Source: Corticimicrobacter populi (GTDB taxonomy: Bacteria > Pseudomonadota > Gammaproteobacteria > Burkholderiales > Burkholderiaceae_B). From it: a DNA stretch of 64,000 nucleotides. This document shows, one piece after another, positions 7,178 to 34,380 of this stretch. How positions within the stretch are numbered: position 1 is the first letter of the stretch; each line of letters starts with the position of its first letter. The translations under genes and the position numbers were made by a program. Location of the stretch: assembly GCF_003123725.1 (NCBI RefSeq), contig NZ_QETA01000001.1, forward strand, positions 1-64,000, written 5' to 3'. The notes beneath the pieces are model-generated. The model saw only the letters and a program-made list of their open reading frames with translations, made no database searches and was not told the DNA's origin.

Positions 7178-8083
7178 TCAGCCCAGAGGGACCTCGAGGG
7201 CTGCATTGATGGGCGCGACCAGATTGCCGACCTGGGAATCAACCGACATCATGATGCTCAGCACCATCACCATGGCAATCGAGTAGACGAACAGCTTGCG
7301 TGCCCAGACTCGGTCGTCTGGTGCACGGTAGCCAGAGATCGCCAGCCAGAGCCAGTAGCTGCCACTGGCAGCCACCACCACGAAATAGCTGGTGCCGGCG
7401 TAGCCGCTGACGGCCAGCATCAGTGTGGCTGCCACGAATGCCGCAACGTAGAAGACGATATGGTGCTTGGCGGTGGAAACCCCCTTGCGCACCGGCAGCA
7501 CCGGGATCGAGGCGGCCTGGTAATCGTTGAAGCGGAAAATCGCGATGGCGTAGGAGTGGGGCATCTGCCACAGGCTGAAAATCAGCAGCAGGATCGCCGC
7601 ACCGGCATCGAACTCGTTGGTCACGGCGCAGTAGCCGACCACGGGCGGCGTGGCTCCGGACAGGCTGCCGATCAGTGTGCCGTAGGTCGAATGGCGCTTC
7701 ATGTAGAGGCTGTACACGCCCACGTAGATCAGGAATCCGATCAGTACCAGCGCCACGGGCAGCAGGCTGGCCGTGGCCAGATACAGCACCGCTACACCGG
7801 CCAAGCCCAGGACACAGGCATAGATCAGTGCATTGCGCGGTGACACCAGGCCGCGCACCAGTTCGCGGTTGCGGGTGCGCGACATCAGGCCGTCGATATC
7901 GCGGTCGATGTAGTTGTTGAATACGCACCCGGACGCAATGACCAGCGATACGCCGAGCGCGGTCCAGAACCCGAGTGCCAGGTCGATGTCGCCCTTGGAT
8001 GCCAGGAAGAAACCGCCGGCAACCGAAATCAGGTTGCCGACGACGATGCCTGGCTTGATGAGCTTCAGATAGCGTTTAAGCAT
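7178..8083 (-). CDS. cyoE: Protoheme IX farnesyltransferase (heme O synthase)
   Basis: 301-residue UbiA-superfamily prenyltransferase. It adds a farnesyl group to heme B to make heme O for the bo3 oxidase. The prenyl-diphosphate/Mg2+ motif is seen as [15 protein letters not shown] (~56-70), followed by about eight membrane helices. Length is normal for CyoE. It is the last gene of cyoABCDE, 19 bases after cyoD, and is followed by a strong palindromic terminator. Confidence 0.96.
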
Positions 8084-8102
8084 TGCATCCGCGCATGTGC
8101 GC

Positions 8103-8435
8103 TCAGTGAATCATCATGTTGTAGTGCATGTTCCAGATAATCCAGATCGAGAGCACGACAACGATGACGACGATGACGACCGTGAAGATGAAACTCATCA
8201 GGTTCCAGCCGCTTTCGGAATGGCGGTTCATGTGCAGGAAATACACCAGTTGAACCACGATCTGGATCACGGCGAAAGCCACGATCAGCAACAGCGTGAC
8301 AGGCTTGGGCAGCACGCCGTACATCACCAGGCCAAACGGGATCAGCGTCAGGACCGCCGACAGGATGAAGCCGACGATGTACGACTTGGTCGAGCCGTGG
8401 CTTTCGCCGGCGGGGGTGGTATGTTCGTGCGACAT
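8103..8435 (-). CDS. cyoD: Cytochrome bo3 quinol oxidase subunit IV
   Basis: 110 residues with three membrane helices, matching CyoD. Recognisable segments are [17 protein letters not shown] (~14-30) and [14 protein letters not shown] (~69-82). It supports assembly and stability of the catalytic subunit in the inner membrane. Two bases separate it from the cyoC stop, so translation is probably coupled. Confidence 0.95.
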
Positions 8436-8437
8436 GA

Positions 8438-9079
8438 TTACAGCACTCCCATCAGGTAGACAACAGTGAACACGCAGATCCAGACCACGTCCAGGAAGTG
8501 CCAGAAGATGCTCAGGCAGTTCAGGCGGGTCTGGTTCGAGGCGGTCAGGCCGCGGCTCGATACCTGATGAATCATGACGGCCATCCAGATCAGACCACTG
8601 AAAACGTGCGCGCCGTGGGTGCCGACCAGCGTGAAGAAGGCCGACAGGTAGGCGCTGCGGCTCGGACCGTTGCCGTTTTCGATCAGGTGATGGAACTCAT
8701 AGAGTTCCATGCAGATGAAGGTGGCTCCCAGCACGAAAGTGACGCAGAGCCACTTCAGTACGCCGGAACGGTCATTGCGGTGCATGGCCAGCATGGCGAA
8801 GCCGTAGGTGATGCTCGAGAACAGCAGCACGAAGGTTTCGGTCAGCACGAAGGGCAATTGCTGGCCAAACAGCTCGACGCTGGTCGGGCCGCCCGCGAAG
8901 GCATTGCTCAGCACGGCGAAGACCGCGAAGAGGGTGCCGAACAGAACGCAGTCCGACATCAGGTAGATCCAGAAACCGAAGACGGAGGTGGATCCCGAGT
9001 CGTGGTGCTCGTGGTCGTGGCCGTGCTCCTGCCCGGAGGCAGGGGTCGCGGCAGAGTGATGTAGGGTTTGACTTGACAT
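8438..9079 (-). CDS. cyoC: Cytochrome bo3 quinol oxidase subunit III
   Basis: 213 residues with five membrane helices, the CyoC/CoxC type. The histidine-rich N-terminus ([14 protein letters not shown], ~17-30) precedes the first helix, and motifs such as [14 protein letters not shown] (~152-165) are typical. It has no redox centre and stabilises the oxidase. It follows cyoB after five bases and precedes cyoD by two. Confidence 0.96.
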
Positions 9080-9084
9080 GTCTC

Positions 9085-11058
9085 TTACGCCTGGGTTGCT
9101 TGGGCTTGGATATGCTGGTGCTCGATGCGTGCGACCTCTTCGGACGGGACGTAGTAGTCCACGTCCTGGTCATAGGTGCGCACGATATAGGCCACGATCG
9201 CACCGACGAACGAGGCACCGACCAGCCACCAGATGTGCCAGATCAGGGCGAAGCACATCACGGTCAGCAGCATTGAAACCACGAATGGATTGCCTGTGTT
9301 GCGCGGCATGTGGATCGGTGCATAGTGGCTGGGCGCGGGCGGCAGGCCACGTTGCTTGGCTTCATAGAACGCGTCAATGGAATCCACCTTGGGCAGCACG
9401 GCGAAGTTGTAGAACGGCGGCGGCGAGGCGGTGGACCACTCCAGCGTGCGACCATCCCACGGATCGCCGGTGACGTCCATGTTCTGCTTGCGGTCGCGGA
9501 TGCTGACGTAGAGCTGCAGGATGAAGAAGCCGATACCTGCCAGGATGAACAGCGCGCCTACCCATGCCACGGTCAGGTAGGGGACCCAGGCCGGGTTGTC
9601 GTAGCTGTTCAGACGGCGGGTCATGCCCATGAAGCCGAGCATGTACAGCGGCATGAAGGCCAGGTAGAAGCCGATGATCCAGCACCAGAAGGAGTAGCGG
9701 CCCAGACGTTCATTGAGCTTGAAGCCGAATGCCTTCGGGAACCAGAAGGTGATGCCGGCCAGATAGCCGAATACCGCGCCACCGATGATGGTGTTGTGGA
9801 AGTGGGCCACCAGGAACAAGCTGTTGTGCAGCAGGAAGTCGGCACCCGGCACGGCCAGCAGAACGCCGGTCATGCCGCCGATGCTGAAGGTGACCAGAAA
9901 GCCCAGGGTCCAGAGCATGGGCGTCTTGAACTCGACGCGGCCCTGGTACATGGTGAACAGCCAGGTGAAGATCTTTACGCCGGTCGGAATGGCGATGATC
10001 ATTGTCATGATGCCGAAGAAGGCGTTGACGTTGGCCCCCGAACCCATGGTGAAGAAGTGGTGCAGCCAGACGATGAACGACAGCAGGCCGATGGCGACGG
10101 TAGCACCGACCATGGATTTGTAGCCGAACAGCTTCTTGCGGGCAAAGGTCGAAACGACTTCAGAGAACACACCGAAAGCCGGCAGTACCAGGATGTACAC
10201 CTCGGGGTGGCCCCAGGCCCAGAACAGGTTCACGTACATCATGGCGTTGCCGCCCATGCCGGCCGTGAAGAAATTCATGTCGAGGTAGCGATCCAGCGAC
10301 AGCATGCCGAGTGCGACTGTGAGGATCGGGAAGGCGGCGACGATGATCACGCAGGTGACCAGGGTGGTCCAGGTGAAGATGGGCATCTTCATCAGGGTCA
10401 TGCCCGGCGTGCGCATCTTGAGGATGGTCACGAACAGGTTGACGCCGGTCAGCAGGGTACCCAGCCCGGATAGCTGCAATGACCAGATGTAGTAATCGAC
10501 GCCGACACTTGGACTGAGATCGATCCCCGAAAGTGGCGGATAGGCCACCCAGCCGGACTGGGCGAACTCACCCACACCCAGCGACAGCATCACAAGGATG
10601 ACGCCGCCCACGAACAGCCAGAAGCTGAGCGCGTTGAGGTAGGGAAATGCCACGTCGCGGGCACCGATCTGCAGCGGCATGACGATGTTCATCAGGCCTG
10701 TCACCAGCGGCGTTGCGACGAAGAAGATCATGATGACGCCGTGCGCCGAGAAGATCTGGTCATAGTGGTGCGGGGGCAGGAAGCCGTCGCTGCCGCCGTG
10801 GGCCAGCATCAGTTGCGTGCGCATCATGATGGCGTCGGCAAAGCCGCGCACCAGCATGATGATGGCCACGATGATGTACATGATCCCGATGCGCTTGTGG
10901 TCGACCGTGGTAAACCACTCCTTCCACAGCCAGGTCCACTTCTTGAAATAGGTGATGCCGCCGACGACGGCGATACCGCCCAGCACGATGGCGATCAGCG
11001 TAACGATGATGATCGGGTCGTGAAGGGGGATGGCATCCAGGGTTAGCTTGCCGAACAT
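9085..11058 (-). CDS. cyoB: Cytochrome bo3 quinol oxidase subunit I
   Basis: 657 residues, the heme-copper catalytic subunit that reduces O2 to water and pumps protons. The copper-B and cross-linked His-Tyr region reads [17 protein letters not shown] (~283-299). The paired copper histidines are in [11 protein letters not shown] (~329-339), and the heme ligand segment is [12 protein letters not shown] (~416-427). About 15 membrane helices are expected. It lies between cyoA (six bases) and cyoC (five bases). The overlapping long frame on the opposite strand is a codon-bias artefact. Confidence 0.98.
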
Positions 11059-24007: not shown

Positions 24008-25015
24008 ATGGCGCGTGCAGTGACCTCCCTGCTGTATGAGCAGGACCTCAAGCGGCAGCTCGGGCTGATATCGAGCGAGGTCGATGCGCCGGTGCCCGCA
24101 TCAGCGACTGACGAGGCCCGCGCTGCGGTGCGTGGGCGCTTTTCCGTATTGCCTTTGCGTGATGGGCTGTATCTGCACATGTCGGATACGGTACAGGTGC
24201 GCGATCATGTGTCCAGTCGTATCCTGCACGAAGGCCTCAAGCTGGCGCTGGTCATTGATGGGCAGGTCGATATGACATACGGACCGCATCGCTTTCTGCT
24301 TGGCCCTGGCTGGGGAGCCGAGCAGGGGCCATCAGCGCAGGCGGCGGCTGTCAATCTGCGACAATCTGTTCTTTGTGTGCGGCGAGGCCGAGCGGGCCGC
24401 AAGGCCCGCGCCATCAGCTTGACTCTTGAGCCATCCTGGATTGGCGACGCAAGTATCTCGGGGGGTGACGACTGGTCTACGGTGCGTCATTTCCTGGAAA
24501 CACATCTTGCGACCTGCGTTTGGCAGCCTTCGGGACGGATATGTGCCTTGGCTGGACAGATGCTGTGCACCAACGTATATGACGATCCCATGCAGCGGCT
24601 GTACCTTGAAAGTCGAGCTATCGAAATTGTGAGTGAAGCATTCCAGCAGATCGCCGGTACTGGCCGTGCCGTGGCGCATGAGGGTATGCCTGTGCGCGAA
24701 CAACGGCGTTTGCTGAGTATCCGCGAATGGCTCGACAGCGGTGAGGCCGATCAACTGAGTGTCAGTGAGATTGCCCGACGGTTCGGTATGAGCGCCAGCA
24801 CACTGCAGCGGTATTTTCGCCAGGCCTATGGTCAAACCGTGTTCGAATATCTCAGGCGTTGCCGCATGGCGCGGGCACGCAAGGCACTGGAGAATGAGTC
24901 CGTCAGTGTGGCTCAGGCGGCGACTATCGCTGGCTACGCCAGTCCTACCAACTTTGCCACGGCCATGCGCCGGCTGTATGGGCTCAGTCCAGCCAGAATG
25001 CGGTCGCGGGTCTGA
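24008..25015 (+). CDS. AraC family regulator (PchR-like)
   Basis: 335 residues. A ~220-residue N-terminal ligand-binding region is followed by a C-terminal AraC DNA-binding domain (~235-333) with two helix-turn-helices: LSVSEIARRFGMSASTLQRYF and VSVAQAATIAGYASPTNFATAM. The layout matches siderophore-responsive regulators such as PchR. AAGGAGGG lies just before the ATG. A TonB-dependent receptor gene follows 171 bases downstream, so this gene probably activates it when the siderophore is present. The inducer is unknown. Confidence 0.9.
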   Translation: MARAVTSLLYEQDLKRQLGLISSEVDAPVPASATDEARAAVRGRFSVLPLRDGLYLHMSDTVQVRDHVSSRILHEGLKLALVIDGQVDMTYGPHRFLLGPGWGAEQGPSAQAAAVNLRQSVLCVRRGRAGRKARAISLTLEPSWIGDASISGGDDWSTVRHFLETHLATCVWQPSGRICALAGQMLCTNVYDDPMQRLYLESRAIEIVSEAFQQIAGTGRAVAHEGMPVREQRRLLSIREWLDSGEADQLSVSEIARRFGMSASTLQRYFRQAYGQTVFEYLRRCRMARARKALENESVSVAQAATIAGYASPTNFATAMRRLYGLSPARMRSRV

Positions 25016-25090
25016 TTTTGACGTTTTTGCATAGTTCTCTGATGCTTGTGCAAACATGCTTTCCCTGTTGCATTTTTATACTTACATGTA

Positions 25091-25109
25091 AATAAGAATG
25101 CATTTCTTT
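25091..25109. promoter_or_regulatory. Candidate Fur-type site before the siderophore receptor
   Basis: An AT-rich near-palindrome, AATAAGAATGCATTTCTTT, lies about 78 bases before the receptor start. It resembles Fur boxes of betaproteobacteria only loosely, through the GAATGCATTTC core. It is a tentative call based on position and symmetry. Confidence 0.35.
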
Positions 25110-25186
25110 TTGATGCTGGAACGAATTTCCGTGCTGGCGTCATGTTGTGTGTCCGGCATTCGGCACAATCGGAACCAGGGAGAGTC

Positions 25187-27460
25187 ATGAGTCATCATCA
25201 TCAAGGCCTGTTCAGGCTGAATCATGTGGCAGCCGTCCTGTGCTGCCTGTCAGTTTTTGCGCCGGTACGCGCCCAGACCGTGCATGCGCTCGATTCCGTG
25301 GACGTGCTGGGTACAGCCGAAGAGGAGCTGAAAGAGTCGCTTGGGGTGTCCGTGATCACTGCGGATGATCTTGCCAAGCGTCCTCCTGCCACGGATCTGT
25401 CAGATATCTTGCGGCGTGAGCCGGGTGTCAATTTGACCGGCAGCGCGGCTTCCGGCATGCGTGGCAATCGGCGGCAACTCGATATCCGGGGTATGGGACC
25501 GGACAACACCATGGTCCTGATCGATGGTCGACCGGCAAACTCGCGCAATGCGGCACGTCAGGGCTGGACCGGCGAGCGTGATACCGACGGTGACACCAAT
25601 TGGGTGCCGCCCGAGGCTGTTGAGCGTATCGAGGTTCTGCGCGGACCTGCCGCGGCCCGTTATGGTTCGGGGGCGATGGGGGGCGTGGTGAACATTATTA
25701 CCAAGCGTTCCACCGACGAACTGTCCGGGTCCATTTCGCAATACAACACTTTCCAGCAGGACTCTGATGAAGGGGATAGCCGGCGTACAACATTCATGCT
25801 GGCAGGACCGCTGAGCGACAAGCTGGGTTTCCGGCTGTTTGGCGGTTATGCCAAGACGCAACCGGATGCCTTGAACATCAATCGCGGCCATGCATACGAG
25901 CAGGGCGGCATCGTGGCGGCTTCCGGCAAGACCGGTGTGCGCGACAAATATATCAATGGCCTGCTGACCCTGGATATCGATGAAAGCCAGACGCTCGATG
26001 TCGAGATGAGCTTCAATCGCAAGAGTGATCTGTATTCCGGAGATACCCAGAATCTCAACGGCTACGCGACCGGCAGCGGTGGTAATTTCGTGCCGGTGAC
26101 GGATCTTTATGGTTCTGAAACGACTGTGGTGTATCGCACCGATCTGGGGCTGACGCATCGCGGCAACTGGGACTGGGGAACGTCACGCATTGGTCTGAGC
26201 TATGGGTATACGCGCAATGATCGAGGCACCGAGGGGCTGTTCGGGGGCCCGGAAGGCGCATTCCTGTCGGAATCGGCTTCGGCACAATCGCGCTATGTCA
26301 GCAAATTCAAGGAGTGGCGTCTTGATGGAGAAGTGAATATCCCGTTGTTTGCGGGTGGCCTGGACCAGATGCTGACGGTGGGCGGTGAATTCGTACATGA
26401 ATCGCTGGAGGATCCGGGCAGCATGCGGATACTGACACTGGCCGGGAGCAGTTTCGAACCGAGCGTATTGCCGGGGCGCGATGGCAACGACAAACTGGAC
26501 TACAACAGTTTTGCCTTGTATGTAGAAGACAATATCCGGGTGACAGATGCACTGACGCTGGTGCCGACCGTGCGCTTCAATCATCATGAAAAATTCGGTT
26601 CCAATGTCAGCCCTGGCCTGACTGCATCGTATGCGCTCAACGATGTCTGGAGTATCAAGGGGGGGATTGCGCGTGCCTACAAGACGCCCAATATGTACCA
26701 GGCCAATCCGAACTATCTGCTCTACAGCCGAGGGATCGGTTGCATGGGGTACATGAGTGCTGCTGGCGGTTGCTATTTGCAGGGCAATGATGATCTCAAG
26801 AGCGAGACCAGCATCAATAAGGAAATCGGATTTGCTTACGATGACGGTTCGTTGAGTGGCAGCCTGGCTTACTTCCGCAATGATTACAAGAACAAGATCG
26901 TGGCTGGGGTTGATCCCTATGGTCAGGTCGTGTCGGGCGCATCCAATCCGTATCTGCTACGCTGGGAAAATACACCCAAGGCGGTCGTGTCGGGCCTGGA
27001 GGGTAATCTGTTCCTGCCGCTGACCGAGACGTTGACCTGGAATACGAACGTGACCTACATGATCGAATCCAAGGATAAAACGTACAACCAACCGCTGAGT
27101 ATTATTCCCAAGTACACAGTGAATTCGTGGCTAGACTGGCAGGCCATGCCCAAGCTGTCGCTGCAGGCCACGCTGACCTGGTACGGCAAGCAGGAGCCTG
27201 CCTCGTTCGATGTTCGCCGCAACGAAGAGGTTGAGCAAGCACCGTCATTGAGTCCCTATGCACTGGTCGGGCTCAATGCCGGATATGAAATCAACAAGAA
27301 TTTCCATATCCGTGCGGGGATCAACAACCTGTTCAACAAGCGCCTGTATCGTACCGGCCTGAATACCGGCACGAACAATGCGGTCATCAAGGGGGCAGGT
27401 GCGCAAACCTACAACGAGCATGGTCGTGCACTGTTCGTCAATCTGACAGCGTCGTTCTGA
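25187..27460 (+). CDS. TonB-dependent siderophore receptor (FepA-like)
   Basis: 757 residues, an outer-membrane beta-barrel receptor. The signal peptide (~1-30, ending VRAQ) is followed by a plug domain with VSVITADDLAKRP, LRREPGVNL, RGMGPDNTMVLIDGRP and RIEVLRGPAAARYGSGAMGGVVNIITK. The barrel ends in aromatic LFVNLTASF with a terminal Phe, as outer-membrane proteins require. The plug pattern matches the FepA/PfeA group that takes up catecholate ferric siderophores. An upstream frame extension exists, but ATG 25187 has AGGGAGAG before it. No siderophore synthesis genes are nearby, so it may use foreign siderophores. Confidence 0.94.
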   Translation: MSHHHQGLFRLNHVAAVLCCLSVFAPVRAQTVHALDSVDVLGTAEEELKESLGVSVITADDLAKRPPATDLSDILRREPGVNLTGSAASGMRGNRRQLDIRGMGPDNTMVLIDGRPANSRNAARQGWTGERDTDGDTNWVPPEAVERIEVLRGPAAARYGSGAMGGVVNIITKRSTDELSGSISQYNTFQQDSDEGDSRRTTFMLAGPLSDKLGFRLFGGYAKTQPDALNINRGHAYEQGGIVAASGKTGVRDKYINGLLTLDIDESQTLDVEMSFNRKSDLYSGDTQNLNGYATGSGGNFVPVTDLYGSETTVVYRTDLGLTHRGNWDWGTSRIGLSYGYTRNDRGTEGLFGGPEGAFLSESASAQSRYVSKFKEWRLDGEVNIPLFAGGLDQMLTVGGEFVHESLEDPGSMRILTLAGSSFEPSVLPGRDGNDKLDYNSFALYVEDNIRVTDALTLVPTVRFNHHEKFGSNVSPGLTASYALNDVWSIKGGIARAYKTPNMYQANPNYLLYSRGIGCMGYMSAAGGCYLQGNDDLKSETSINKEIGFAYDDGSLSGSLAYFRNDYKNKIVAGVDPYGQVVSGASNPYLLRWENTPKAVVSGLEGNLFLPLTETLTWNTNVTYMIESKDKTYNQPLSIIPKYTVNSWLDWQAMPKLSLQATLTWYGKQEPASFDVRRNEEVEQAPSLSPYALVGLNAGYEINKNFHIRAGINNLFNKRLYRTGLNTGTNNAVIKGAGAQTYNEHGRALFVNLTASF

Positions 27461-28837: not shown

Positions 28838-29038
28838 TCAGCCGCCTCCTACTGCGACAACGATTTCCAGGCGGTCATCTGCGGCCAGCAGCGTCTCGGC
28901 ATACTGACTCTTGGGCACGATCTCGCCATTGCGCTCGACGGCAATGCGTTTGCCGACGTAGCCGAGCTGTTCGACCAGCGCGGACAGGGTAAGGGGAGCG
29001 GGCACGCTGTGCGGCTCGCCATTCAGGATAATGTTCAT
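28838..29038 (-). CDS. thiS: Sulfur carrier protein ThiS
   Basis: 66 residues with the ubiquitin-like fold and the essential C-terminal Gly-Gly (ends VAVGGG). When thiocarboxylated, it donates sulfur for thiazole formation in thiamine synthesis. The end is GGG rather than the usual single GG pair, so two glycines still end the chain. In many relatives thiS is followed by thiG and then trmB; here thiG is missing from between them. Confidence 0.9.
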   Translation of the reverse strand: MNIILNGEPHSVPAPLTLSALVEQLGYVGKRIAVERNGEIVPKSQYAETLLAADDRLEIVVAVGGG

Positions 29039-29124: not shown

Positions 29125-29799
29125 GTGACTGAAACAGTGCAACTGATCGTCAACGGACAGGCGCTGGATGCCGCGCCTCATGCCACCATCATCCAGGCCT
29201 ACGCGGCAGCCGGTGCCACCCTGACGGCCAATGTCGGCTGCATGGGGCAGGGCGTCTGTGGCTCCTGTCGTTGCCTGGTACGGCGCGAGGGGGAGCCGGA
29301 GGTCCGTACCGCGCTGGCCTGTGAGACGCAGGTCGAGGCCGGCATGCTGGTCAGCTTCATTGATTATTTCTCGACCGGGCAGGACCGGGTCTACGATCTG
29401 GCGTCACTGGGCGATGGCTGGTCACGCCTGCAGGAGACAGCCCGCATCTTTCCGCAGGCGGCGCATTGCCGTCATTGCGGTGGCTGTGACCGGGCCTGTC
29501 CCAAGGGGCTGTCGGTGCAGCAGGGCGTGGCGCACGCCGTGGCAGGGGATTTTGCGGCGGTGGACGATGTATTCGACCAGTGTGTCATGTGCAACCTGTG
29601 TTCGCTGGCCTGTCCGGAAGATATCCGGCCCAATCACCTTGGCCTGTTCGTGCGCCGCCAGCGTGCCAGCGCTCAGCGTCCGGCAGACCTGCTGCGTCGG
29701 CTGAACCAAATCGAATCGGGACGCATGCTGGTCGATCCGGGTACGGACGCGTCATTATCCTGTACGGACGCAGGGCGCAAACCGGGAGCGCAACCATGA
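29125..29799 (+). CDS. Iron-sulfur subunit, fumarate reductase-like (2Fe-2S plus two 4Fe-4S)
   Basis: 224 residues. An N-terminal plant-type ferredoxin domain has GCMGQGVCGSC and LACE cysteines (~38-75) for a [2Fe-2S] cluster. It is followed by two canonical CxxCxxCxxxCP motifs, CRHCGGCDRACPKG (~114-127) and CVMCNLCSLACPED (~153-166), for two [4Fe-4S] clusters. SdhB/FrdB proteins have a similar order but usually carry a [3Fe-4S] third cluster. The start is GTG. The stop overlaps the next gene's ATG by four bases. It should pass electrons between the NuoF-like and flavoprotein subunits; this is inferred. Confidence 0.87.
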   Translation: MTETVQLIVNGQALDAAPHATIIQAYAAAGATLTANVGCMGQGVCGSCRCLVRREGEPEVRTALACETQVEAGMLVSFIDYFSTGQDRVYDLASLGDGWSRLQETARIFPQAAHCRHCGGCDRACPKGLSVQQGVAHAVAGDFAAVDDVFDQCVMCNLCSLACPEDIRPNHLGLFVRRQRASAQRPADLLRRLNQIESGRMLVDPGTDASLSCTDAGRKPGAQP

Positions 29800-31442
29800 C
29801 GGCGGGGGCGTCCATGCGTGCGGCGGGCATTCCCTATGCACAGGCACGCGCCCGCCTGGCGGCAGGCGAGCCGCCGTTGCGACCGGAACCCGGGCCGCGC
29901 GAGGCATTGCTGCGCGAATTTCATCCCGATCATGCCCCTGCTGCCCGCACGGCCCTGCAGGTCGGGCCGAATGCCGGCGACCCCTGTCATCCTGAACTGG
30001 CTCGCCTGCTGCAGAGCCGTACGTTGGTCGATGACCGTGATCTGACCGGCGTGCAGACGCTGGAGACCGATGTGCTGGTGGTCGGTGGCGGCGGGGCAGG
30101 CTGCGCGGCGGCGCTGGCTGCTGTGCAGGCGGGTGCCCGCGTGCTGCTGGCCGGCAAGCTGCGACTGGGGGATGGCAATACCGTGATGGCCGAAGGGGGG
30201 ATACAGGCGGCCGTTGGCGATGAGGATAGCCTGCAGCAGCATTTCGAGGATACCTGGCGGGGTGGACATCAGGTGGCAGACCGCACGCTGGTCGCCGGCA
30301 TGGTCGGCGACGGGCCGGACACCATTCGCTGGCTGATCGGGCTGGGCGTGCATTTCGACCTGGAGACCTCCGGGCCGCACCGGGATTGTCTGGTGCGCAA
30401 GCGCGCCGGCGGCACTCAGGTGCCACGCGTGTTGTGCCATCGCGACTTTACCGGCCTGGAAATCATGCGGGTTTTGCGTGAGGCGGTGGAAATGCATCCA
30501 GGCGTCACCGTCCGCAACCGGCATCCTGTTGTGGAGTTGCTGTCAGACCCGCATGGGGCGTGCGCGGGTGCGGTGCTGTATGACCTGGAGCAGCGCAGGC
30601 TGGTGCTGGTGCGTGCCCGCGCCGTGATATTGGCGACCGGGGGCAGCGGCCGCCTGCACCTGCAGGGGTTCGCAACGTCCAATCATTATGGTGCGACCGC
30701 CGATGGTCTGGTGCTGGCCTATCGGCTGGGTGCCCGCCTGCGCGAACTGGATTCCTTTCAGTATCACCCGACCGGCATCGCGCATCCGGCCCATCTGGCC
30801 GGTGGCCTGATTTCCGAGGCGGTGCGTTCGGCGGGTACCTATCTGGTCAACGGGCTGGGGGAGCGTTTCATTGATGAGCTGGCACCGCGCGATGTGGTGG
30901 CGGCCGCCATCCTGCGTGAATGTGCCGAGGGGCGCGGGGTGCAGCATGATGGACAGGTGGGGGTGTTCCTCGACACGCCGGGTCTGCTGGCACGGCAACC
31001 CGATGCGTTGCAGCGGCTGGTCACGCTGGGGCATATCGCACACAAGTGCGGTGTCGATCCTGCGCAGGATCCTCTGTTGGTGCATCCAACCCTGCATTAT
31101 CAGAATGGCGGCGTGGTCATCGATGCGCAGGGGGCGACAAGCGTGCCCGGGCTGTACTGCGCAGGCGAGGTCAGCGGTGGTATTCATGGACGCAACCGCC
31201 TGATGGGCAATGCCCTGTTGGATATCCTGTGCTTCGGGCGTCGGGCTGGCCGGGCTGCGGCGATGATGCCGCTATCGCATGGAGAGCGGGTGGGTATCGA
31301 GCATGTCCAGGATTGGCATCGCAGCCTGATTCGTGCCGGGCTGGTCGATGCGCCGGCAGCACCCTGCCTGTATCCGAATTACGGTGCCGTACCCTTTGAC
31401 CTGCATGCCCATGCGGCGGGCCAGGAGATGACGCATGACTGA
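29796..31442 (+). CDS. Flavoprotein subunit, fumarate reductase/succinate dehydrogenase-like
   Basis: 548 residues. An ~90-residue N-terminal extension precedes the FAD fold (VVGGGGAG, ~95-102). Residues matching the fumarate reductase active site are present: His324 (HPTG), Arg365 (APRDVV), His434 (LHYQNGG) and Arg468 (HGRNRL). The histidine that carries covalent FAD in SdhA/FrdA is replaced by Asn128 (GNTVMAEGG), so FAD should be non-covalent. The Glu of L-aspartate oxidases is absent (KRAGG in place of REGGH), which argues against NadB. No Tat signal or heme domain is visible, so it is soluble and cytoplasmic. It overlaps both neighbours. Confidence 0.86.
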   Translation: MTAGASMRAAGIPYAQARARLAAGEPPLRPEPGPREALLREFHPDHAPAARTALQVGPNAGDPCHPELARLLQSRTLVDDRDLTGVQTLETDVLVVGGGGAGCAAALAAVQAGARVLLAGKLRLGDGNTVMAEGGIQAAVGDEDSLQQHFEDTWRGGHQVADRTLVAGMVGDGPDTIRWLIGLGVHFDLETSGPHRDCLVRKRAGGTQVPRVLCHRDFTGLEIMRVLREAVEMHPGVTVRNRHPVVELLSDPHGACAGAVLYDLEQRRLVLVRARAVILATGGSGRLHLQGFATSNHYGATADGLVLAYRLGARLRELDSFQYHPTGIAHPAHLAGGLISEAVRSAGTYLVNGLGERFIDELAPRDVVAAAILRECAEGRGVQHDGQVGVFLDTPGLLARQPDALQRLVTLGHIAHKCGVDPAQDPLLVHPTLHYQNGGVVIDAQGATSVPGLYCAGEVSGGIHGRNRLMGNALLDILCFGRRAGRAAAMMPLSHGERVGIEHVQDWHRSLIRAGLVDAPAAPCLYPNYGAVPFDLHAHAAGQEMTHD

Positions 31443-32703
31443 GCACATGGCTGATTTCGAACCGGTGTTGCTGCATCCCTCCCGACAGGTCGGTGCCGAC
31501 CTGGATGCCTGGCTGGCCGCCGGTGGCGGGCAGGGGCTGCAGGCGGCGCTGGCGCAACCCGATGCCGTGATCGGTACGTTGCAGGCGGCCGGCCTGCGCG
31601 GCATGGGCGGCGCGGGCTTTCCGACCTGGCGCAAGTGGGCCGGCATGACCGAGGTCGAGGCACCGGATGGCGTGCGCCATATCGTGTGCAACGGCAACGA
31701 GGACGAGCCCGGCACCTTCAAGGATCGGCATCTGCTGCTGCATACGCCGCACCAGATCATCGAGGGCATGCTGATCGCTGCCGTGGCGCTGCGCGCCAGC
31801 CATGTCACGCTGTATGCCAATCCGCACCAGGCCGAGGCGCTTGTTGCCCTGCGTCTGGCCGTGGCACAGTGGCGCGCCAGTCCGTTGCTGGGGCGGGTGG
31901 CCGACTGTCTGGGTCGCATGCCTGAACTGAACGTGACACCGAGTTCCGGGCGCTACATCGGCGGCGAGGATACGGCGGTCATTTCCTGGCTGGAGGGCGG
32001 TTTTCCGTTTCCGCGCCGCAAGCCGCCGTTTCCGACGCAGCAGGGCGTTGGTGGCGCGCCGACGCTGGTGAACAACGTCGAGACCTTTGCCAATGTGCCG
32101 CATATCCTGAGCCGGGGGGCTGAGTGGTATCGGTCGTTGGGCCAGGGTGAGGCGGCGGGCACCAAGCTTTATTCGCTTTCCGGTGATGTGCTCAATCCGG
32201 GCCTGTACGAACTGCCCATGGGCACGTCGCTGCAGGATCTGGTATTCGTGCATGGCGGCGGCATGCTGCAGGGGCGGGCCTTCAAGGCGGTTTTCACGGG
32301 CGGGCCGTCCAATACGCTGTTGACGGCGGCCGATCTGGATGTCGCGCTGGATTTCGATTCGGTGCGGGCGCGCAAGTCGCGACTGGGCACCGGCGCAATG
32401 ATCGTGATTTCCGAAGGGACCAGCGTGGTGCGCAAGGTGTCGGAATATATCGACTTTTTCGCGGCCGGATCGTGCGGGCAGTGTCCTTCCTGCAAGTGCG
32501 GCACGTTCCAGCTTTCGCGCCTGCTGCATCGCTTTGACAGCGGTCACGGTTCGGCAGACGACCTGCGGGCCCTGCGCAACCTGTGTGGTATTTTGCCGAG
32601 CAGTGGGCGCTGCGGCCTGATCGATGGTGCGGTCACGGTCGTGGAAAGCTCCCTGCACACTTTTCCCGAGGAATATGGCGCGGTGCGCCAGCCCCCTGCC
32701 TGA
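31435..32703 (+). CDS. NuoF-like NADH-oxidising flavoprotein subunit
   Basis: 422 residues of the 51-kDa/NuoF family. The FMN/NADH site motifs are LRGMGGAGFPTWRKW (~54-68) and CNGNEDEPGTFKDR (~86-99). The [4Fe-4S] ligands are SCGQCPSCKCG (~347-357) and a distal Cys near GRCGLI (~397). It should take electrons from NADH via FMN. No NuoE-type or other complex I genes are present; instead it overlaps the fumarate-reductase-like flavoprotein gene by eight bases. A soluble NADH:dicarboxylate oxidoreductase complex is the likely product of the three genes, which is an inference. Confidence 0.88.
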   Translation: MTEHMADFEPVLLHPSRQVGADLDAWLAAGGGQGLQAALAQPDAVIGTLQAAGLRGMGGAGFPTWRKWAGMTEVEAPDGVRHIVCNGNEDEPGTFKDRHLLLHTPHQIIEGMLIAAVALRASHVTLYANPHQAEALVALRLAVAQWRASPLLGRVADCLGRMPELNVTPSSGRYIGGEDTAVISWLEGGFPFPRRKPPFPTQQGVGGAPTLVNNVETFANVPHILSRGAEWYRSLGQGEAAGTKLYSLSGDVLNPGLYELPMGTSLQDLVFVHGGGMLQGRAFKAVFTGGPSNTLLTAADLDVALDFDSVRARKSRLGTGAMIVISEGTSVVRKVSEYIDFFAAGSCGQCPSCKCGTFQLSRLLHRFDSGHGSADDLRALRNLCGILPSSGRCGLIDGAVTVVESSLHTFPEEYGAVRQPPA

Positions 32704-32724: not shown

Positions 32725-34380
32725 ATGCCCAGAACCGATCTGTCTCCGTTTTCGCTGTGCGGCATAGGCCTGGTTCTGGGCACATTGCTGTTTGCTGCTT
32801 CGCTGACACCGTCCCTGGTGCCGCGCGAACCCTGGATACAGGGTGTGCTGGGTGGTTTCTGCCTGGCTGCCGGCTATGGGCTGGGGGTTTTGCTGCGCCG
32901 GTTATGGCGTGCCATGGGCCTGCCTGCGCTGCCGGAGCGTGTGCGGCGTGTGGCCCTGCTGCTGACCCTGGCGCTGTGTCTGATCGCTGCGGCGCTGGCG
33001 TTGTGGTGGGCGGCCGGCTGGCAGAACCGGTTGCGGGCGCGGATGGAAATGACGCCCATCGACAGTGCCGGGCCGCTGAGTATCCTGGCGCTGGCGTTGC
33101 TGACCTTTGCCGTGCTGCTGGCGCTGGCGCGCCTGTTCGGCTGGATCCGGCGCTGGTTTTCGGCACGGCTGGGGCGCTATCTGTCACGGCCGGCCGCCGC
33201 GCTGGTCGGTATTGTGGTGACGGCTACGCTGTTCTGGAACATCGGCAATGGTGTGCTGGCCGATCGTGCCATGCGTGCTGCTGATCGGATCTACAGCGGG
33301 CTGGATGCACTGATCGAGGATGACGTGGCCCAGCCTTCCAATCGTCTCAAGACCGGTGGGCCGGGGTCCCTGGTGGATTGGCAGCAACTGGGCCGGCAGG
33401 GGCGGCGCATGATTGCGGCCGGTCCTGATGCGACACGGATTGCAGAGATGACGGGGCTGCCTGCGCAGGAGCCGTTGCGTGTCTATGTCGGTCTGAATTC
33501 GGCCGATACGCCTCAGGCACGGGCCGAGCTGGCCTTGCAGGAACTGTTGCGCATCGGTGCGTTCGAACGGAGCAACCTGGTGATCGCCACGCCGACAGGC
33601 ACTGGCTGGGTTGATCCGGAAAGTCAGTCGGCGCTGGAGTATGTGCTGCAGGGAGATGTCGCCACCGTTTCGGTACAGTATTCATACCTGCTGAGCTGGC
33701 TGGCGCTGCTGGCCGATCCGCAATACGGCGTGGATACTGCGCGTGCCGTGTTCGCCGCCGTCTATGGGCACTGGCGCAGCCTGCCGCCCGACGCGCGGCC
33801 GCGTCTGTACTTGCAGGGCCTGAGCCTGGGGGCGCTCAATGGCGACCAGAGCCATGATCTGTACCAGGTCATCGGTGCGCCCTATCAGGGTGCGCTGTGG
33901 TCGGGGCCGCCTTTCAGCACACCGACATGGCGCGCGGTCACCGCTGCCCGGCAACCCGGTTCGCCGGCCTGGCTGCCGCGTTTTGGTGACGATTCGGTGG
34001 TGCGGTTCACGGCGCAGGACAACCGGCTTGATGAGGCTGCCCAGCCCTGGGGACCCTTTCGCATCGTGTTTCTCCAGTATGCCAGCGATGCCGTGACCTT
34101 TTTCGATCCACGCGCCTTGTGGCGCCGCCCGGCCTGGATGCAGGCTCCGCTGGGGCCGGACGTGTCACCCGACATGACCTGGATTCCGGTGGTGACATTC
34201 CTGCAACTGGCCTTCGATCTGATGCTGGCGACCGAGCCGCCCAAGGGGTATGGGCATGTCTATGCGTTTGATCACTATGCGGATGCCTGGGCCAGCCTGA
34301 CCTCGCCGTCAGGCTGGACACCGGAGCGACTGGCTGCGCTCAAGCAGCGCGTTGCGCAAGCTGCTCGCGCAGGGCAGTAA
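32725..34380 (+). CDS. Membrane alpha/beta-hydrolase (Abhydrolase_9 type)
   Basis: 551 residues. About five N-terminal membrane helices (~1-185) are followed by an alpha/beta-hydrolase domain with nucleophile motif GLSLG (Ser367). This matches the Abhydrolase_9_N plus Abhydrolase_9 architecture, an uncharacterised family. It starts 21 bases after the NuoF-like gene and may be co-transcribed. Its last 41 bases overlap the 3' end of the convergent DUF1266 gene. Confidence 0.88.
   Translation: MPRTDLSPFSLCGIGLVLGTLLFAASLTPSLVPREPWIQGVLGGFCLAAGYGLGVLLRRLWRAMGLPALPERVRRVALLLTLALCLIAAALALWWAAGWQNRLRARMEMTPIDSAGPLSILALALLTFAVLLALARLFGWIRRWFSARLGRYLSRPAAALVGIVVTATLFWNIGNGVLADRAMRAADRIYSGLDALIEDDVAQPSNRLKTGGPGSLVDWQQLGRQGRRMIAAGPDATRIAEMTGLPAQEPLRVYVGLNSADTPQARAELALQELLRIGAFERSNLVIATPTGTGWVDPESQSALEYVLQGDVATVSVQYSYLLSWLALLADPQYGVDTARAVFAAVYGHWRSLPPDARPRLYLQGLSLGALNGDQSHDLYQVIGAPYQGALWSGPPFSTPTWRAVTAARQPGSPAWLPRFGDDSVVRFTAQDNRLDEAAQPWGPFRIVFLQYASDAVTFFDPRALWRRPAWMQAPLGPDVSPDMTWIPVVTFLQLAFDLMLATEPPKGYGHVYAFDHYADAWASLTSPSGWTPERLAALKQRVAQAARAGQ

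Follow-up and report, generated by a model that had tools for sequence, protein, structure and literature searches.

Three overlapping genes in Corticimicrobacter populi raise the question of what reaction their products might carry out together. The genes occupy positions 29125-32703 on the + strand of a 64,000-nt stretch of contig NZ_QETA01000001.1 (assembly GCF_003123725.1), the whole of which is referred to here as the window, and they encode, in this order, an iron-sulfur (FeS) protein, a fumarate reductase-type flavoprotein and a NuoF-type NADH dehydrogenase subunit. An earlier note on this DNA had pointed to direct electron transfer from NADH to a dicarboxylate in the cytosol, and our comparisons lend support to that proposal. 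It is suggested here that the trio is probably a soluble three-subunit NADH:fumarate reductase that serves a reductive branch of the citric acid cycle or dicarboxylate metabolism. We favour this reading because the residues of the fumarate site are invariant among relatives, the neighbouring genes point to the reductive cycle and to dicarboxylates, the motifs of the NuoF-type subunit are kept and there is no membrane anchor. We infer complex formation, the route of the electrons, the substrate and the direction of the reaction from the sequences.

The flavoprotein gene (29796..31442, + strand) encodes 548 amino acids (aa) from an ATG start, and its identification draws on Pfam, alignment, conservation and a fold match. 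When the protein was aligned to Escherichia coli FrdA, SdhA and NadB, residues H324, L338, S340, E341, R344, R365, H434 and R468 fell opposite FrdA H232, L242, T244, E245, R248, R287, H355 and R390. The earlier note had placed His324, Arg365, His434 and Arg468 correctly against FrdA and did not mention E341 and R344. Conservation was judged from the 79 full-length rows out of 81, the window included: H324, L338, E341, R344, R365, H434 and R468 do not vary in these rows, and position 340 is occupied by Ser (45 rows) or Thr (34 rows). Together with a FAD_binding_2 domain (30069..31217; Pfam, 241.8 bits), this catalytic His/Arg/Glu set places the protein in the superfamily of fumarate reductase and succinate dehydrogenase flavoproteins. 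Two features of related enzymes are missing, as had been claimed: the histidine that binds flavin adenine dinucleotide (FAD) covalently in complex II is replaced by Asn128 in 79/79 rows, and A204 stands at the site of NadB Glu121, the residue typical of L-aspartate oxidase.

The closest fold to the predicted flavoprotein model, which has a mean predicted local distance difference test score (pLDDT) of 74.6, is the flavocytochrome c3 (Fcc3) fumarate reductase 1qo8 (Z 27.8, root mean square deviation (rmsd) 3.4, 372 aligned), with urocanate reductase tied (Z 27.3) and E. coli FrdA close behind (Z 26.5). In Fcc3, according to selected passages of one paper, a His binds the fumarate carboxylate, with Tyr in its place in urocanate reductase, and the proton path consists of Arg380/381, Glu377/378 and Arg401/402 (PMC7921117). 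Our predicted models were of moderate confidence and several active-site stretches fell below a pLDDT of 50, so that they were used for fold only. We take the carboxylate-binding His of Fcc3 to equal FrdA H232 (H324 here), and Arg380/381, Glu377/378 and Arg401/402 presumably equal FrdA R248, E245 and R287 (R344, E341 and R365 here). About 88 residues at the N-terminus of the flavoprotein (29796..30059) have no counterpart in E. coli FrdA, SdhA or NadB, and within this extension H43-P44-D45 and C64 are invariant in 79/79 rows. The longest open reading frame (ORF) of the flavoprotein begins at 29580 and comprises 620 aa; the protein was taken as 548 aa because GC by codon position in the extra stretch, 29580-29795, is 0.67/0.69/0.54, unlike the 0.78/0.50/0.73 of the flavoprotein gene, and because a GGGAG stretch lies upstream of the ATG at 29796.

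The other two proteins supply what would be needed to bring electrons from NADH to this flavoprotein. The FeS subunit (29125..29799, + strand; 224 aa, GTG start) has an N-terminal [2Fe-2S] domain and a C-terminal domain for two [4Fe-4S] clusters, recognised by Pfam as Fer2_4 and a Fer4 dicluster. Its conservation alignment (75 full-length rows out of 78) gives the [2Fe-2S] ligands as C39, C45, C48 and C66 (29239..29322) and the [4Fe-4S] motifs as C115/C118/C121/C125 and C153/C156/C159/C163 (29467..29613), and these twelve cysteines are invariant in 75/75 rows. In the predicted model (mean pLDDT 74.3), residues 99-185 matched HdrC (Z 11.1, rmsd 2.3, 87 aligned), and there were further matches to RnfC (Z 10.3, 77 aligned) and to the N-terminal domains of NuoG/HydA-type proteins (Z about 9, about 70 aligned); Mycobacterium SdhB (6lum_B) spanned both halves with a Z of 7.8, but with an rmsd of 10.7. 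The NuoF-type subunit (31435..32703, + strand; 422 aa) combines Complex1_51K, SLBB and NADH_4Fe-4S domains in Pfam. The residues of its flavin mononucleotide (FMN)/NADH motifs, which belong to Complex1_51K (31582..32103, 137.4 bits), are kept in the conservation alignment, and of the N3-type [4Fe-4S] cysteines in NADH_4Fe-4S (32437..32682) C347, C350 and C353 are present in 79/79 rows and C384 in 75/79. It scored 374.7 bits against TIGR01959, under the cut-off of 558.65. As two further NuoF-type matches occur in the same genome, at 37-39% identity, the protein of the trio is a separate paralogue.

These domains and coordinates agree with the earlier description of the products as a 2Fe-2S/2x4Fe-4S protein, a fumarate reductase-type flavoprotein and a NuoF-like protein. 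Neighbouring genes overlap by 4 bases (FeS/flavoprotein) and 8 bases (flavoprotein/NuoF-type). The further claim that the set is without a membrane anchor also holds: the operon contains no anchor gene, and no membrane segment is evident in the three proteins, whose top 19-residue Kyte-Doolittle means are 1.14, 1.69 and 1.54.

A search for the same trio in other genomes, which the note had proposed, proved informative. A pattern-based scan of species genomes confirmed 83 relatives, from which 80 loci were kept; L048 and L087 look like one contig and are not to be counted twice. Most of the hosts belong to the Burkholderiales, two strains of Cupriavidus necator being among the hits, or are Gallionella/Sulfuricella-type bacteria; the rest include Pseudomonas luteola, Halotalea, Rhodospirillaceae and various metagenome-assembled genomes (MAGs). 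NuoF was matched in 80/80 loci and the FeS protein in 79/80, and the order FeS-flavoprotein-NuoF was kept with its strand in 79/80, the exception being L039, where the contig starts within the flavoprotein. Since the partners were matched and their order and strand kept in this way, the association cannot be due to chance, and an oddity specific to one organism is ruled out by the 80 loci. Searches of relatives and of the class gave 15 further loci, with the FeS protein in 15/15 and NuoF within the stretch in 12/15; the three without NuoF (L098-L100) are the most distant of the 15. Pairwise distances of the three proteins correlate at 0.98 (74 loci), a value in which shared ancestry is uncontrolled and which was not used as evidence. 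In L076, a single MAG contig, the FeS protein and the flavoprotein lie in one 738-codon frame (1-2250), possibly a natural fusion.

Gene neighbourhoods were compared in 94 stretches, made up of the 80 loci, 13 larger stretches and the window, with genes taken from predictions and families identified on representatives. KorA was found near the trio in 35/94 stretches and KorB in 34/94, always on the strand of the trio, and in 27 loci the order is KorA-KorB-FeS-flavoprotein-NuoF. Such a shared operon with KorAB, a 2-oxoglutarate:acceptor oxidoreductase, was seen in Gallionella- and Sulfuricella-type autotrophs, with short overlaps between adjacent genes of the run, for example in L054 and L050. 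Representatives from L054 and L072 exceed the TIGR03710 and TIGR02177 cut-offs; in L111 KorA is above its cut-off and KorB below. KorA and KorB lie downstream of the trio in L109-L111, L113 and L114, which belong to the window's class, and KorA does so in L046. Other genes of the cycle recur less often: malate dehydrogenase on the strand of the trio in 4/94 stretches (two weak matches of 26-27% on the opposite strand were left out of the count), ATP-citrate lyase near the trio or its core in 3/94, SucC and SucD directly 3' of NuoF in L115, with SucC overlapping NuoF, and, in L050 and L052, a monomeric NADP isocitrate dehydrogenase on the 5' side of the trio. A DASS-type anion transporter adjoins the trio in 28/94 stretches (27 Burkholderiales loci and L116), in 26 of them on the opposite strand. 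About 0.003 DASS matches would be expected per 17.6-kb stretch, from 26 matches of the query in 133 Mb, a rough yardstick because the 18 genomes used were mostly picked for having DASS beside the trio, L010 being left out. DctA is near the trio in 4 loci, and in Pseudomonas luteola the neighbour is a succinyl-CoA:acetate CoA-transferase.

If the trio does act as a NADH:fumarate reductase, the FMN of the NuoF-type subunit would accept a hydride from NADH, and single electrons would then travel through the N3-type [4Fe-4S] cluster of that subunit to the [2Fe-2S] cluster and both [4Fe-4S] clusters of the FeS protein, and on to the non-covalent FAD of the FrdA-type subunit. The FAD would then transfer a hydride to fumarate, with a proton supplied by R365 and fed through R344 and E341. 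The first and last of these steps would follow the known chemistry of the two families, and the route between them is suggested by the clusters and the operon. In the relatives the reaction may form part of a reductive branch leading from oxaloacetate through succinate to 2-oxoglutarate, or of dicarboxylate metabolism. Reduction of fumarate by NADH is strongly downhill on redox potentials and transfer from succinate to NAD+ strongly uphill, so that the reductive direction is to be expected.

SdhA was near-full-length in 20 of 22 sampled genomes (55-71% identity to the E. coli protein), partial in one and absent at high identity in one, and it is thereby ruled out that the trio is the hosts' sole succinate/fumarate enzyme. 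Since SdhA is present in 20/22 of these genomes and in the window genome, the trio would complement succinate dehydrogenase (SDH) in the reverse direction and would do so with no need for a low-potential quinone. To our knowledge most beta-proteobacteria have no such quinone, and the potential of ubiquinone is too high for efficient reduction of fumarate.

We know of no characterised enzyme with exactly this trio, and none was described, among the matches listed, in the open-access literature searched (titles, abstract openings and selected passages), in keeping with what the earlier note had stated. Among known enzymes, the closest parallel in function would be FrdABCDE of Hydrogenobacter thermophilus, a soluble fumarate reductase driven by NADH that is said to have been described by Miura in 2008 and whose five subunits are reportedly encoded by scattered genes. 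The Hydrogenobacter/Aquifex enzyme resembles the trio in being soluble, in having a FrdA-type flavoprotein with FeS protein, in using NADH as donor and in its role in the reductive cycle. By its description it has five subunits, with FrdC and FrdE as additional ones and a Nox-type FrdD, whereas the trio has three genes in one operon and a NuoF-type protein; with genes scattered as reported, a count of adjacent genes says little about the number of subunits. In Aquifex aeolicus the subunits are given, in passages of one paper, as FrdA aq_594, FrdB aq_553, FrdC aq_116, FrdD aq_835 'nox' and FrdE aq_067 (PMC10052474). Because the Aquifex type has five subunits and another NADH protein, the trio may be seen as a different assembly for probably the same reaction.

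Methanogen TfrA was the top-scoring NCBIfam model for the flavoprotein among the matches listed, at 329.1 bits against a cut-off of 718, and the TfrB model matched the FeS protein weakly (29.5 bits). TfrB has a CCG cysteine-rich (HdrB-like) half and TfrAB uses a thiol site, whereas the 224-aa FeS protein has no CCG domain match and the trio has a NADH subunit in place of a thiol site. Of the alignment proposed earlier, that to FrdA, SdhA and NadB was made as such, and TfrA was compared through the above model score. E. coli FrdA and SdhA share the FAD domain and active site with the flavoprotein but differ from the trio in having the covalent-FAD His, a C-terminal helical domain and anchors, and in lacking the N-terminal extension. 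NadB, which binds FAD non-covalently, is alike in fold and in its active-site Arg/His; in the trio, however, Glu121 has become Ala and the score is 294 bits against the TIGR00551 cut-off of 452.75. Klebsiella has a single-chain cytosolic NADH:fumarate oxidoreductase with an old-yellow-enzyme-like domain. It differs in being one polypeptide with another NADH module, and no old-yellow-enzyme-like domain was reported by Pfam in the trio proteins.

In the three distant loci that have no NuoF, L098-L100, the FeS protein is 31-34% and the flavoprotein 44-46% identical to the window proteins. Enlarged stretches of these loci (L106-L108), with neighbour families scanned on L108, place the pair beside ATP-citrate lyase-type genes and contain no NuoF match; L106 and L108 also hold Kor alpha and beta, a gene that looks gamma-like by eye, HdrB/HdrC-like genes and HdrA, and the L107 contig ends before this region. 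Selected passages on the reductive tricarboxylic acid (TCA) cycle cluster of tubeworm symbionts and Thioflavicoccus give such a pair the name tfrAB, regard it as a putative thiol:fumarate reductase and suggest that it is linked to an electron-bifurcating Flx-Hdr complex (PMC6315080); in passages of another paper, tfrAB expression diverged from that of the rest of the cluster (PMC11636981). To judge from the matching description, L106-L108 appear to be these published clusters. They share with the trio a homologous FeS-flavoprotein core and a reductive-cycle setting but differ in the absence of a NuoF match and, in L106 and L108, in the adjoining Hdr-type genes; in this sense the core of the trio has a distant relative in putative tfrAB. 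A tree of 29 flavoproteins groups the NuoF-linked family with the NuoF-less relatives (100/100), apart from FrdA, SdhA and NadB, in a midpoint-rooted topology where long branches meet and which includes no methanogen TfrA.

The neighbourhoods and the active site also bear on readings other than NADH-driven fumarate reduction. The same NADH route might end on another unsaturated acid, such as mesaconate, aconitate, itaconate or an aryl acrylate, since the residue corresponding to FrdA Phe116 is replaced by Pro, Ala, Val or Gly in 79/79 rows, many Burkholderiales trios adjoin transporters of unknown specificity, and urocanate reductase, equally near in fold, exemplifies substrate switching of this fold in selected passages of PMC7921117. 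We consider this rather unlikely, because there is no variation in the carboxylate-binding H324, H434 and R468 or in the proton path, position 340 remains Ser or Thr, and the KorAB, SucCD, malate dehydrogenase and ATP-citrate lyase neighbours point to fumarate and succinate. Those same KorAB neighbours, with their short gene overlaps (e.g. L054 and L050) in the 27 loci with the order KorA-KorB-FeS-flavoprotein-NuoF, might instead indicate that the trio in KorAB operons works within a larger machine, in which electrons of NADH are split between fumarate and a low-potential ferredoxin/KorAB, or those of 2-oxoglutarate pass straight to fumarate. The FeS-flavoprotein pairs of L106 and L108 would fit such a machine, as they lie with Kor and Hdr genes, a setting for which passages of PMC6315080 propose a bifurcating complex. 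The NuoF-type subunit, however, with its 422 aa, aligns only with the middle part of two HydB chains (131-526 of 599 and 161-554 of 626 residues) and thus lacks their N- and C-terminal extensions; bifurcating HydB/NuoF (Bfu) subunits carry additional FeS domains at both ends. As KorA is also absent from 59/94 stretches (some of them short) and no KorA-family match was obtained in the window genome, a larger machine seems quite improbable. The specific form in which the five gene products make one soluble complex of chemolithoautotrophs that links the reduction of fumarate with NADH to 2-oxoglutarate synthase, through bifurcation or direct hand-over, the window trio being a free-standing version, is likewise a long shot.

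Homology to SdhA and NadB, and the presence of nadB immediately 5' of the trio in L104 and L105, could be taken to suggest an enzyme working in the oxidative direction, from succinate to NAD+, or oxidising aspartate for NAD synthesis. Such a role is very improbable: the first reaction is strongly uphill by the potentials given above, a separate near-full-length SdhA is present in the 20/22 sampled genomes, and Glu121 of NadB is lost. In the window genome, moreover, nadA gave no match (12/14 controls positive) and no nadB match exceeded the cut-off of 452.75 (13/14 controls positive, 5 of them over the cut-off), the matches to the nadB model being SDH (360 bits), the trio flavoprotein (294) and one 20-bit fragment. 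With Glu121 lost, nadA unmatched and no nadB match over the cut-off, replacement of NadB by the trio in NAD synthesis was ruled out. As a separate observation, de novo synthesis of NAD from aspartate appears to be missing from the window genome, and the upstream nadB genes lie at 5281-6939 in L104 (over the cut-off) and at 5217-6848 in L105 (88% identical to that of L104).

Several observations weigh against a NADH:fumarate reductase. Of the 79 rows, 39 have Pro at the site of A204, 37 have Ala, two Val and one Gly; FrdA (Phe116) and SdhA have Phe at this site, and the pocket must therefore differ from theirs. The C-terminal helical domain, Succ_DH_flav_C, has no Pfam match and the FrdA alignment stops before it, and for none of the trio proteins did a listed NCBIfam model reach its cut-off (for the flavoprotein, the best 25 of 58). 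The occurrence of the trio is scattered: at the cut-offs applied and with its own genome included, it was matched in 2/61 relatives and 15/369 class genomes. The copy in L081 may be broken, or affected by sequencing error, because its flavoprotein and NuoF matches (8001-10900) lie in separate pieces. Around the window trio, none of 13 neighbour types sought was present in a 20-kb stretch, and the genome has its own SDH, 57.6% identical to E. coli SdhA. KorA was matched there neither by a KorA protein query nor by the TIGR03710 model, in a search where 14/14 controls were positive. As no KorA was detected, no searched cycle gene adjoins the trio and the genome has this SDH, we infer the role of the trio in C. 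populi from its relatives.

The wider surroundings of the trio hold further genes. A promoter scan at the window locus gave 0 sites, and a terminator scan 3 against 2.1 expected. Upstream and divergent lie trmB and, adjoining it, a 66-aa ORF (28838-29038, - strand) that by eye resembles ThiS; the genome has its strong match to ThiG on another contig (G000:C10:231419-232162). The gene directly 3' of the trio, which shares its strand (32725-34380), belongs to Abhydrolase_9 and clustered with no neighbour at other loci. The region 24008-27460 holds an AraC-type regulator and, after it, a TonB siderophore receptor of the FepA type (938 bits with NF010048, against a cut-off of 493). In the relatives, KorAB is followed in L110 (337-2886), L111 (483-2930), L113 (12891-15359) and L114 (12697-15216) by a protein of about 815-850 aa in which only a Fer4_13 ferredoxin domain was recognised, near the C-terminus (families scanned in L111), and then by a small FeS protein, RnfB-like by eye. 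Members of two protein clusters, cl6 (14 loci) and cl7 (12 loci), are found repeatedly in the vicinity of the trio, for example in L009, L019 and L023, and look DUF3300/DUF2950-like by eye; a NCBIfam scan of one cl6 member matched nothing.

If the trio is indeed a NADH:fumarate reductase, bacteria that rely on ubiquinone would gain a quinone-free means of reducing fumarate, whether for running the lower citric acid cycle in reverse or for redox balancing, and a fumarate reductase could be assigned to the iron- and sulfur-oxidising autotrophs of the Gallionella and Sulfuricella type. It would also point to a swappable design, in which a FeS-flavoprotein core stands beside a NuoF module that accepts NADH or beside Hdr modules, depending on the lineage. 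Should the less probable five-gene complex exist, one machine would run two reductive steps of the cycle. Being small and soluble, the trio could be tried in succinate-producing strains.

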